Origin: Clostridia bacterium
GTDB taxonomy: Bacteria > Bacillota > Clostridia > UBA1381 > UBA9506
Assembly (NCBI GenBank): GCA_017415145.1
Contig: JAFQJE010000019.1
Span: 1-41,231, forward strand
DNA: 41,231 nt
Direction of reading: 5' to 3'
In this document: positions 1,409 through 40,924 of the stretch, piece after piece
Position numbering within the stretch: the stretch's first letter is position 1
How the letters are laid out: each line of letters starts with the position of its first letter
Notes under the pieces: generated by a model
The model's input: the letters and a program-made list of their open reading frames with translations, nothing else
Databases searched by the model: none
What the model was told of the DNA's origin: nothing
Translations under genes and position numbers: made by a program

Positions 1409-1556
1409 TTTTTATAAGGGTGGATATATTCCCTTAACATATATGATTGCACCTGCCATAATTATAATTGGTTGTAAAACCAAACGTACGACTCTGACTG
1501 CTGCGACACATTTTTTGTACAGAATGAAGTAGGTCTCCATTCCGAAAACGTGAGAA

Positions 1557-1886
1557 TGCGAGTTGGAGCATCAATAGTTTCTCTACATTAATACTTCTAA
1601 TGTGGTACTTTTGTCGCGGCAAAAGTGCCCAAAACCGCTGGCGGGGGCTTCGAAACTCCCCCGCACCCCCGACAATGATTTAGGGGTAAACCCCTAAAAA
1701 CCCCACGCACAAACATAAGTTTTTGCAAAAAATTAATCATATTCGCCGGGGTCCGGGGTGTCCCCGGTCGTCTCAAGGGGGTATGGGGGGACATTCGAAA
1801 TCCCCCCATAGTTTTTGCTACTTTTTTTAAAAAAGTAGAAGACTAGAAGTACTAATGTGTCCCATAAAATGATGCTCCAACTCGCA
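1557..1886. repeat. Inverted-repeat element, copy A (MITE-like, 330 bp)
   Basis: The ends are perfect 15-bp inverted repeats, TGCGAGTTGGAGCAT at 1557 and its complement ending at 1886. Inside each end lies a second inverted motif, TTA(A/G)TACTTCTA, then hairpins TACTTTTG-TCGCGG-CAAAAGTG on the left and a CTACTTTTTT...AAAAAAGTAG stem on the right. The core is GC-rich, unlike its surroundings, and full of short G/C-run hairpins. The element sits between two convergent genes and their terminators. Copies B (10098) and C (21157) share ends and much of the core; copy A is inverted relative to both. It carries no believable gene. Non-autonomous transposon (MITE) is the simplest reading; no transposase is in the window and I could not find a clear target duplication. 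Confidence 0.8.
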
Positions 1887-1908
1887 AACTTACTCATTTA
1901 CAAAAACA

Positions 1909-10097: not shown

Positions 10098-10414
10098 TGC
10101 GAGTTGGAGCATCATATTTTTTTATACGTTAGTACTTCTAGTCTTCTACTTTTTTAGAAAAAGTAGCAAAAATTGTGGGGCTGCCGATGCCCCACGCCCC
10201 CGGCTGGGGACACCCCAGACCCCGGCGAGCAAGATAAGAATTTTGCAAAAACAAATGTTGGTGCGTGGGGTTTTTAGGGGCTTGCCCCTAAATCATTGTC
10301 GGGGGTGCGGGGGAGTTTCGAAGCCCCCGCTAGCGGTTTTGGGTACTTTTGCCGCGACAAAAGTACCATATTAGAAGTATTAAGGTATTATAACTATTAT
10401 TGCTCCAACTCGCA
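10098..10414. repeat. Inverted-repeat element, copy B (317 bp)
   Basis: The second copy of the element seen at 1557, in the opposite orientation. The ends share TGCGAGTTGGAGCA as a 14-bp perfect inverted repeat. Subterminal TTAGTACTTCTA and its partner TAGAAGTATTAA are present, as are the CTACTTTTTTAGAAAAAGTAG and TACTTTTGCCGCGACAAAAGTA hairpins. The core phrases ending in TTGTCGGGGGTGCGGG are close to those of copy A. Long reading frames cross this element in A and B with similar peptides, but only because the DNA is nearly the same; there is no ribosome site. It lies downstream of the HAD terminator and just before the promoter of the small RNA at 10460. Confidence 0.8.
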
Positions 10415-10424
10415 AACATAACTA

Positions 10425-10453
10425 TTGCATATTATAAAAAAATGTGATATAAT
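10425..10453 (+). promoter_or_regulatory. Promoter of the small RNA at 10460
   Basis: TTGCAT (10425-10430), 17 nt, perfect TATAAT (10448-10453). Counting seven bases from the -10 places the start at G10460, exactly the first base of the RNA's closing stem. Confidence 0.75.
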
Positions 10454-10459
10454 ATAATT

Positions 10460-10622
10460 GCTAAACAAATTTTATATAATATTTAACGAGGTTTGTATTT
10501 TTTTATCTTTCGATAAAAATGCAAGCTCTATTTTCACATACTTCGTTAGGTATTATGAAATTTGTTTAGCGACAGGAGTCTTGCGTTTTTAGTGCGTAGG
10601 GTTCTGCCTTACGCACTTTTTT
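10460..10622 (+). ncRNA. Free-standing structured small RNA, about 163 nt, class unknown
   Basis: No believable protein frame exists here, but the DNA folds into a long rod. Stem 1: GCTAAACAAATTT (10460-10472) pairs perfectly with 10558-10570. Stem 2: ATAATATTTAACGA (10476-10489) pairs with TCGTTAGGTATTAT (about 10543-10556) through 14 pairs, two of them G-U. Stem 3 is a T-rich hairpin capped by TTTC, with an unpaired stretch of about 14 nt (TATTTTCACATAC) on its 3' side only. A short tail GACAGGAGTCTTGCG leads to a terminator hairpin. The rod shape and size recall 6S RNA, but a two-sided central bubble is not obvious, so I leave it unnamed. It has its own promoter and terminator and lies between repeat copy B and convergent rny. 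Confidence 0.7.
10591..10622 (+). terminator. Terminator of the small RNA
   Basis: AGTGCGTAGGG-TTCT-GCCTTACGCACT followed by TTTTT. Confidence 0.8.
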
Positions 10623-10670
10623 AATTTTAATAAGTTTTTAGTAGCTCTGACTGCGGTATTGCGACAGAAA

Positions 10671-10710
10671 AGAGCCCCACTATCAATATTTGTGGGGTTC
10701 TTTTTCTTTT
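10671..10710 (+). terminator. Second plus-strand terminator with no gene before it
   Basis: AGAGCCCCAC, an 11-nt loop, GTGGGGTTCT and a T-rich tail. It follows the small-RNA terminator by about 50 nt with no reading frame between them. It may be a back-up terminator or the end of a second short transcript. Confidence 0.6.
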
Positions 10711-10714
10711 ATTT

Positions 10715-10750
10715 AAAAAAAAAGAGGCTTTTCGAAAGAAAAGCCTCTTT
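10715..10750 (-). terminator. Terminator downstream of rny
   Basis: A perfect 13-bp stem, AAAGAGGCTTTTC with a TTTC loop, followed by nine T residues on the minus strand, about 65 nt after the rny stop. Confidence 0.75.
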
Positions 10751-10816
10751 AAATCTATATAGAATAAAAATTAAATCTCTTAAAAACTCTATATATATTT
10801 TAATTTTTTTTACGCT

Positions 10817-12370
10817 TTATTTTGCGTACTCAACAGTTCGTGTTTCGCGTATTACATTTACCTTAATCTGACCGGGATATTCCATTTCTTCCTCAATCTT
10901 TTTCACGATATCACGAGCGATGAGTGTCATGCTTTCGTCCTTAACGTCGTCAGGACAAACCATAATTCTTACTTCTCTGCCTGCCTGGATAGCAAAGGAT
11001 TTTTCTACTCCGTCAAAGGAGTTTGCAATTTCTTCTAATTTTTCCAGACGTTTAATGTATGACTCAATGTTTTCGCGTCTTGCACCGGGACGAGCAGCAG
11101 ATATTGCGTCTGCAGCCTGTACGATTGCTGCAACAATTGTTGTAGCTTCAACGTCACCGTGGTGAGCCATAATTGCGTGGATAATATCTTTGCTTTCCTT
11201 GTATTTTTTAGCAAGGTCTGCGCCGATTGTTACGTGTGAACCTTCGATTTCATGGTCAGCAGCTTTACCAAGGTCGTGGAGAAGACCGGCACGCTTTGCC
11301 ATCGTTACGTCCACACCAAGTTCTCCTGCAATAATTCCTGAAATATGAGATACTTCGATAGAATGCTTTAATACATTCTGACCATAACTTGTTCTGAATT
11401 TTAATTTACCTAAAAGTTTAACAATTTCGGGATGTAAGTTATGAACCCCTGTTTCAAAGGCAGCATTTTCGCCTTCCTGTTTGATTGTTGCCTCTACTTC
11501 TTTTTTGCTCTTTTCGTAGAGTTCTTCAATTCTTGCGGGGTGAATACGCCCGTCAACAATTAATTTTTCCAATGTCTGACGTGCAATTTCACGTCTTACA
11601 GGGTCAAAACCTGATAAAATTACAGCCTCAGGTGTATCATCAATAATTAAATCAATACCTGTTAAGTTTTCCAAGGTTCTGATGTTTCGACCTTCACGGC
11701 CGATAATTCTTCCCTTCATTTCCTCGTTGGGAAGGTTAACTACTGTTACAACCACTTCTGCAACATGGTCGGCAGCACATCTCTGGATGGCACCTGCAAT
11801 GATGTTTTTAGCGGTTTTTTCTGCATTTTCTTTAGCCTGGGTTTCTATCTCTTTTACCATTACGGCAGCATCTGCTCTTACTTCTGTTTCTAACTTTTCG
11901 AGCAAGTACTGTTTTGCTTCTTCTTTTGACAAGCCAGACAAATTCTGGAGCATTTCAAGTTCTTTTTCTTTGATTTTGCTCAATTCATCACGGATAACAT
12001 CTAACTCTTTATCGCGTTTAGCCAAAGCTTCTTCACGTTTTTCCAAAGCTTCGTTTTTCTTGTCGAGATTTTCTTCCTTCTGCTGAATGCGGTGTTCCTG
12101 TCTTGAAATCTCGTTACGTCTTTCTTTTATTTCCTTATCAAGTTCAGCACGTTCCTTGTGGTTTTCTTCTTTTGCTGCAAGGATTGCTTCGCGCTTTTTG
12201 CTTTCGCCTTCTTTTTTGGCATCTTCAATAATTCTTATAGCTTCGGTTTTAGCAGAACCGATTTCTGCTTCTTCCTGCTTTTTTCTTGAAGAGTAGCCTG
12301 ATTTATAAGAAATAAGCGACGCAACAATAATCAAAACGAGGGCAACTGCACCCGTTATGATTAATTCCAT
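10817..12370 (-). CDS. rny: Ribonuclease Y
   Basis: A 517-residue membrane-anchored endoribonuclease that starts mRNA decay in Firmicutes. The N-terminal [20 protein letters not shown] is the membrane anchor, followed by a long charged coiled coil (to about residue 190). A KH RNA-binding domain follows ([17 protein letters not shown]), then the HD domain with the [15 protein letters not shown] metal motif. Length is normal. The start at 12370 is chosen because GGAGGTAAAAAG precedes it; the frame runs 11 codons further upstream without a better site. Its usual neighbour ymdB is not here but in the folT operon at 17077. Confidence 0.96.
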
Positions 12371-19511: not shown

Positions 19512-19563
19512 ATCAATCATCCTTTCTGTTTTTGCCGCAAAAGAACGTTTGATATCATTTGCA

Positions 19564-19670
19564 GCAGCGGAATGCGGAAAAGACACCGCAAGGGATATTT
19601 TTTGTTCCCTTTTCGTGCAAAGGACAACTTCCCGTTCCTTTGCCACTTAACGCGTCAGTTCCTACTCTGC
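19564..19670 (-). promoter_or_regulatory. Tetrahydrofolate (THF) riboswitch
   Basis: On the minus strand the leader contains, in order, the conserved pieces of the folT-type THF riboswitch: GCAGAGTAGG at the 5' end, CGCGTTAAGTGG, then GGGAAGTTGTC closing the CAAAGGA/TCCTTTG arm, the ACGAA junction, an AAGGGA/TCCCTT arm, GCGGTGTC, and CCGCATTCCGCTGC, which closes P1 (GCAG with CTGC). A downstream hairpin (GCTGCAAA with TTTTGCGGC) would use the 3' strand of P1 and could be the competing fold next to the ribosome site. Function as a THF sensor is known for the class; the direction of control is inferred. Confidence 0.92.
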
Positions 19671-19694
19671 ACACACAAATAAGTGTACTATTTT

Positions 19695-21144: not shown

Positions 21145-21156
21145 GTGAGTGGGGTT

Positions 21157-21541
21157 TATCAGTTGGAGCATTATATGGTGACGTACATTAATACTTCTAG
21201 TTCTCTACTTTTTTAGAAAAAGTAGCAAAAACTTGGGGGGACTCCGAATTTCCCCCCCCAAAACCCCCTTGAAATGGCCGGGGAAACCCCGGACCCCGGC
21301 GAATATGATTAGTACTTTGCTAAGTATATGTTTTTTTGGGTTTGGGTTTTAGTTATTAGAATCGCAATGTTATACCTATCACAATACTTACTGCGAGGCA
21401 GTGGGGTCTGGGGTGGCCCCAGCCGTTTGTGGGGTGCGGGGGAATCGGAACCCCCGCTAGCGGTTTTGGGTACTTTTGCCGCGACAAAAGTGCCATATTA
21501 GAAGTATTAATTTGTTTTTGCATATAATGCTCCAACTCGCA
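21157..21541. repeat. Inverted-repeat element, copy C (about 385 bp, altered core)
   Basis: The third copy, oriented like copy B, again between two convergent genes and their terminators. The right end is a perfect ATGCTCCAACTCGCA. The left end keeps AGTTGGAGCAT but has lost the outer TGCG. The subterminal TTAATACTTCTA / TAGAAGTATTAA pair and both flanking hairpins are kept. The middle differs from A and B: a stretch of roughly 110 bp (about 21325-21435) replaces the shared core. Similarity with copy A continues about 15 bp past the right end (ACTTA-TCATTT), so the true boundary may be slightly outside the core repeat. Confidence 0.75.
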
Positions 21542-21564
21542 GACTTATTCATTTGACAATAAAT

Positions 21565-40788: not shown

Positions 40789-40924
40789 TTAGATGCGTTC
40801 ACACCGGGAGGAGCCGCATCACACAGGATAACTTGCTTATCGCTGCTTGGTTCCCCACCTGACGAGGTTCACAAGCTCCTGTTGTGCGGATCCCGGCCGA
40901 CAACGCTTTCGCGTAGAACGCTAA
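40789..40924 (-). ncRNA. ffs: Signal recognition particle RNA (4.5S-type)
   Basis: The minus strand contains the SRP helix 8 signature CGTCAGGTGGGGAACCAAGCAGCG, split here as CGTCAGG, TGGGGAA and CCAAGCAGCG, matching the GUCAGG...GGAA...AAGCAGC core. The arms pair through CCGCA/TGCGG, CCGGGA/TCCCGG and the closing GCGTTC (40916-40921) with GAACGC (40795-40800). A small ACGC-GAAA-GCGT hairpin near the 5' end is an added feature. The RNA binds Ffh for protein targeting. Ends are approximate; processing probably trims the transcript. Location upstream of dnaX is the usual Firmicutes one. Confidence 0.93.

Follow-up and report, generated by a model that had tools for sequence, protein, structure and literature searches.

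The RNA encoded at positions 10460..10622 (plus strand) of the window—by which we mean the entire 41,231-nt stretch of Clostridia DNA analysed here—is one member of a new family of structured RNAs (covariance model R1: 141 bits, E 1e-24). We assign a probability of roughly 0.6 to the reading that this family is a cis-acting, riboswitch-like transcription attenuator operating by strand exchange, of which the window feature is one copy.

An earlier note had proposed, from the sequence alone, a structured RNA with a promoter and a terminator of its own, and its main coordinates held. The promoter (10425..10453, plus strand), read from the sequence, combines TTGCAT (10425-10430) and TATAAT (10448-10453; extended as TGA-TATAAT) across a 17-nt spacer, with 6 nt between TATAAT and the start at G10460. 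The TTGCAT site was absent from a promoter-scan listing; a similar layout, TTG.../TGNTATAAT, precedes nearly all of 40 homologues. G10460 opens the closing stem P1, in which GCTAAACAAATTT (10460..10472) is perfectly complementary over 13 bp to AAATTTGTTTAGC (10558..10570). At the other end lies the intrinsic terminator T1 (10591..10622; hairpin 10591-10617, U-run to 10622), which an independent terminator scan recovered with 12 pairs. The minimum free energy of the whole RNA is -60.4 kcal/mol, compared to -26.3 +/- 3.2 in 200 dinucleotide shuffles (z -10.6).

Within P1, an AUA joint (A10474, T10475 and A10476; conservation 94-96%) leads into the 5′ strand of a hypervariable stem P2, together spanning 10474..10496. 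The P2 3′ strand, equally hypervariable, was placed at 10536..10557 from the fold and the seed alignment, in which the P2 core is only 72% paired. The U-rich 5′ strand of a further stem, P3 (10490..10507), would pair with 10512-10527 in an alternative (ON) state. The switch strand AAAAAUGCAAGCUC (10515..10528) has, from covariation and swap tests, two candidate partners: the P3 5′ strand or the tail (10573..10590), the latter pairing being a pseudoknot between AAAAATGCAAGCTC (10515-10528) and GGAGTCTTGCGTTTTT (10575-10590). On the same types of evidence, the tail may act as pseudoknot partner (10576-10590) or as 5′ strand of an antiterminator (10573-10586), whose 3′ strand (10594..10606; swap test, window fold -13.2) overlaps the 5′ half of T1. 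These pairings recast two further claims of the note. The one-sided bulge is real on the nested fold, but most of it is the strand engaged by the tail in the pseudoknot, and the AGGAG of the tail, suspected to bind ribosomes, belongs instead to a strand whose partner is either GCUC in the apical arm or the 5′ half of the terminator. We likewise rejected the idea that a peptide starts within the tail (GGAGNNAUG): the AUG there is not conserved and results from pseudoknot complementarity. Downstream of T1, we noticed a possible degenerate ‘anti-tail’ (10642..10668; the family's P1 3′ strand and tail in reverse complement, weak in the window) and a second terminator-like hairpin, AGAGCCCCAC...GTGGGGTTCT, with a U-run (10671..10709), which was read from the sequence and is absent from the terminator-scan listing.

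The same genome has a paralogue of 77% identity on its contig C9, and blastn returned matches in many relatives. From an alignment of 34 diverse members we built the covariance model R1, which detected members in 50 of 61 relatives, often in tandem and up to 27 per genome; the window's own genome holds five. Class-wide, R1 found members in 93 of 391 Clostridia genomes and 55 of 223 genera—about a quarter of the sampled genomes—in a search that scored few candidates per genome and whose copy numbers are lower bounds. In a sample spanning the phylum, the remaining 397 genomes had no member, a result that doubles as a specificity control. Close relatives on named contigs stem from gut MAGs labelled Oscillospiraceae, Clostridia or Candidatus Avimonoglobus, plus one labelled Bacteroides sp. 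One good member each (about 123 bits) was also present on MT837627.1 and MT835845.1 (L240, L241), two human faecal scaffolds that lack annotation and are labelled ‘Bacteriophage sp.’ but could be bacterial DNA within a virome. An exact pattern had no match in IMG/VR and none in plasmids, and we set aside the idea of a phage RNA.

From 5′ to 3′, family members comprise P1, the conserved AUA joint, hypervariable P2, an apical hairpin, the 3′ strands of P2 and P1, the tail and the terminator. In the apical hairpin, the 5′ arm is rich in U and the 3′ arm, which runs on into GCUCUAUUUU, is rich in A. The consensus tail, CAACAAUCGGAGNNAUGCRUUUUU, has its complement in the apical arm (AAAAAYGCANGCUC), giving a pseudoknot across P1. 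Compensatory changes in relatives, which the note had named as a check, are massive. Across 114 sequences, 97.4% of cells were paired (83.0% in shuffles), double-changed cells numbered 491 (134 in shuffles) and the covariation score was 0.454 (0.184 in shuffles); the signal collapsed once partners were slid by 1-3 columns, and the seed alignment agreed. P1 was 98.8% paired, with all ten core pairs changed on both sides, and the pseudoknot 94-95% paired, with double changes in 8 of its 14 pairs. For T1, pairing reached 99.9%, with 8/8 pairs doubly changed. As the 114-sequence alignment had been fitted to a pseudoknot-free model, the pseudoknot counts are independent of the model.

Both pseudoknot strands have a potential alternative partner. 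For the A-rich strand it is the U-rich strand on the 5′ side (forming P3), and for the tail it is the terminator 5′ half (antiterminator), as in the homologue L068, where CGGAGUUAUGCA faces UGCGUAGCUUCG. In a swap test, each member's own strands were compared with strands exchanged in from other members, yielding p values that ignore phylogeny. By this measure, own strands outperformed swapped ones in the pseudoknot (own -15.8, swapped -11.6 kcal/mol; p 5e-26), the antiterminator (own -13.9, swapped -9.7 kcal/mol; p 1e-24) and P3 (own -11.6, swapped -9.0 kcal/mol; p 6e-23), showing that all three alternatives co-evolve (p<1e-22, phylogeny ignored). The advantage of the pseudoknot and of the antiterminator was equal in members that precede a gene (leaders) and in those that do not (orphans). 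Column shuffles gave weak signals for the antiterminator alone and for P3 alone. Mutually exclusive terminator and antiterminator folds with a common strand emerge from the swap tests, with the antiterminator column shuffles being weaker.

The proposed attenuator would form two mutually exclusive folds during transcription. In the OFF state, the A-rich switch strand would pseudoknot with the tail, permitting the terminator to form and transcription to stop at about 163 nt. In the ON state, the 5′ U-rich strand would hold the switch strand in P3, leaving the tail to invade the terminator 5′ half so that RNA polymerase reads on. In the leader members, about a third of the family, this would gate exported and accessory protein genes ~20 nt past the terminator, with the balance tipped by a small ligand, a protein or another RNA. 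We infer that the folds exchange in the cell, that control runs in this direction and that orphan copies have any role at all. The window copy has the same four switch strands and may give rise to a constitutive or regulated short RNA or, alternatively, to a readthrough RNA of about 250 nt ending at the second hairpin. Its computed energies (P3 -12.5, pseudoknot -17.0, antiterminator -13.2, terminator -17.9) make OFF, that is pseudoknot plus terminator, look energetically favoured, with pseudoknot entropy left uncounted. The window copy controls no adjacent gene; most likely, it makes the short RNA or the ~250-nt readthrough form.

By a simple rule, 56 of 161 distinct members qualified as leaders, about five to six of them with doubtful ORFs, leaving ~50 directly upstream of a gene in a 5′-UTR position. 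Their start codons, equipped with Shine-Dalgarno sequences, lie mostly 14-32 nt past the U-run (median 20). Two leader-type members occur in the window's own genome, at C15:54203 (start 24 nt past T1) and at C26:12072 (start 68 nt past T1). The leader genes, BspA/LRR types among them, are very diverse, with no recognisable ligand theme: ten scanned proteins included LRR_5 plus Dockerin_1, Cu_amine_oxidN1, SLH, ABC transporter and zinc-ribbon matches as well as several unknown small proteins. Short unknown proteins of 45-85 aa recur behind leaders in three sets (L063, L082 and L166; L067, L179, L210 and L221; L161 and L180), exemplified by M-DYKxxY..., MNIKLELL... and MEKLTAxLFSK...; the two short leader proteins scanned against Pfam had no match. 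The description as free-standing fits the window copy, which sits 3′ of a HAD hydrolase gene and faces rny (RNase Y), but not the roughly one third of members that are 5′ leaders. Nor is the place between the HAD gene and rny conserved, and the note's proposal to collect homologues from there would have failed. We searched 20 relatives and found rny in 19, only one of which had so much as a weaker match nearby (L253:3736); the closest relative, with rny at 93% identity, has an empty site next to that gene.

Several of these observations weigh against an attenuator: about 100 of the 161 members, the window copy included, have no gene behind the terminator; the leader genes are diverse; and the column shuffles of antiterminator and P3 are weak. 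The scarcity of strongly conserved unpaired bases outside the switch strands also counts against a switch and is unusual for a small-molecule aptamer.

The predominance of orphans, each with its promoter and terminator, would be expected if the family consisted of trans-acting small RNAs whose main form is free-standing, whose pseudoknot stores and releases the tail for targets and whose leaders are chance neighbours. The anti-tail adds to this possibility, which we hold with low confidence. It is frequent 3′ of the terminator in free-standing members, sits between that terminator and the next terminator hairpin (e.g. in L154, L148, L200, L057 and L132), beats shuffled sequence (p 5e-10) and is weak in leaders. 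Its pairing with the member's own tail was no better than with those of other members (p 0.92), which gave no support to strict intramolecular tail/anti-tail pairing; the anti-tail could stem from an old fold-back duplication or act as a shared site for pairing in trans. Against chance neighbours stands the tight start-codon spacing after the terminator in the leader class. Moreover, the tail co-evolves with its own terminator 5′ half in both classes, which a purely trans-acting RNA would not need.

It is improbable, in our estimate, that the family is a dispersed mobile or selfish repeat, transcribed by chance, whose covarying stems serve movement rather than regulation. High and variable copy numbers, tandem copies and the empty rny-side locus of the closest relative would suit such an element, as would a MITE-like module of ~320 bp with terminal inverted repeats (GCGAGTTGGAGCA/TGCTCCAACTCGC) that lies just upstream of the promoter in three of the five RNA copies of the window genome. 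Module copies are located in the window at 10099-10413, 1557-1898 (minus strand) and 21148-21547, and elsewhere at G000 C9:10986-11316 and C15:53757-54089; they lie near RNA copies in genome G002, too. However, the module was confined to one genus among 31 genomes, whereas the RNA is class-wide; no conserved element boundary or transposase was noticed at the RNA copies; and hypervariable stems that keep their pairing argue for a function at the RNA level. Adjoining another module copy, a lone sequence resembling the P1 3′ strand plus tail (TGTGTCGCAGCAGTCAGAGTCGTACGTTT; 1481-1516, minus strand) is probably a decayed RNA copy; R1 found no full member there.

A further, speculative extension, to which we attach small odds, is a two-tier regulon in which dozens of leaders with one switch design are joined by free-standing copies acting on them in trans, via the tail or a readthrough-made anti-tail. 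If true, pairing of orphans with either of two leader elements, the conserved tail or the switch strand, would set termination at many unlinked genes at once.

Orphans might instead be antisense-acting attenuators: readthrough of T1 would enter a convergent gene (rny in the case of the window copy) from its 3′ end and repress it. Antisense-acting riboswitches are documented (PMC9943018), and among the 93 non-leader members followed by a sufficient length of sequence, 54 have as their first large downstream ORF a convergent one, which ends at a median distance of 127 nt. Yet the convergent neighbours identified here are unrelated genes (RNase Y, aldolase), and in the window both the second hairpin with its U-run (10671-10709) and rny's own terminator intervene. 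That hairpin, and the lack of conservation of the RNA/rny arrangement among relatives, make antisense control of rny unlikely, and we regard the general form of this reading as quite doubtful.

The note had left open whether the RNA was a divergent 6S or a new class, and database searches speak for the latter. A gathering-score scan of the whole window against Rfam 15 returned no family at the RNA (only a THF riboswitch at 19563-19671 and a bacterial small SRP RNA at 40799-40898, both on the minus strand and ordinary), and at E<=10 the region 10200-10900 contained neither 6S—the check that the note had suggested—nor any other convincing match. No Rfam family covered the RNA at 20 homologue loci, and the best-scoring homologue produced only chance matches at E<=5. 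The searched main-text passages of PMC11109978, PMC8632094 and PMC8040213 held no matching motif; unnamed listings may exist in their supplements. Within these bounds, its absence from Rfam 15 marks the family as previously uncatalogued, and the strong covariation in relatives fits a new class. A divergent 6S RNA (RF00013) acting as an open-promoter mimic to bind RNA polymerase, suggested by the rod-like fold beginning at +1 and the length of ~160 nt, is largely refuted and would be very surprising in view of the missing model match, a canonical 6S on a separate contig of the same genome (C16:23251, 81 bits), a one-sided bulge covarying with the tail in place of the large two-sided central bubble, and the conserved pseudoknot, up to 27 copies per genome and leader positions, none of them 6S features.

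Among known systems, terminating riboswitches and attenuators that exchange a pseudoknot, terminator and antiterminator (such as fluoride and SAM) resemble the family in that many members are 5′ leaders, in that the tail is common to the upstream fold and the terminator, and in that the terminator lies just before the ribosome site. Unlike them, the new family has no Rfam match, mostly hypervariable stems with few conserved unpaired bases, and many copies per genome, most without a gene and the others near unrelated genes. In Listeria, terminated riboswitch RNAs of the SreA type have roles both in cis and in trans (PMC8079631) and parallel the family as terminated leaders with a possible second life as small RNAs, although many members here lack a downstream gene altogether; the antisense-acting riboswitches (PMC9943018) are another precedent for terminated leaders with second roles. 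The mobile or repeat candidates among the structured RNAs of the Breaker-lab scans (category MRSC, PMC11109978) share several copies per genome and inconsistent gene context, but differ from the present family, at whose copies we noticed no transposase and which has a conserved promoter, switch strands and leader geometry.

With nearly every stem pair covarying, a presence in about a quarter of the sampled Clostridia, up to 27 copies per genome and no entry in Rfam 15, the family would count as one of the more common regulatory RNAs of gut bacteria to have gone undescribed. Should the switch prove real, many surface and accessory genes may be coordinated by one signal. Since a single genome can contain leaders as well as free-standing copies, it can be tested directly whether trans-acting RNAs arose from terminated leaders.
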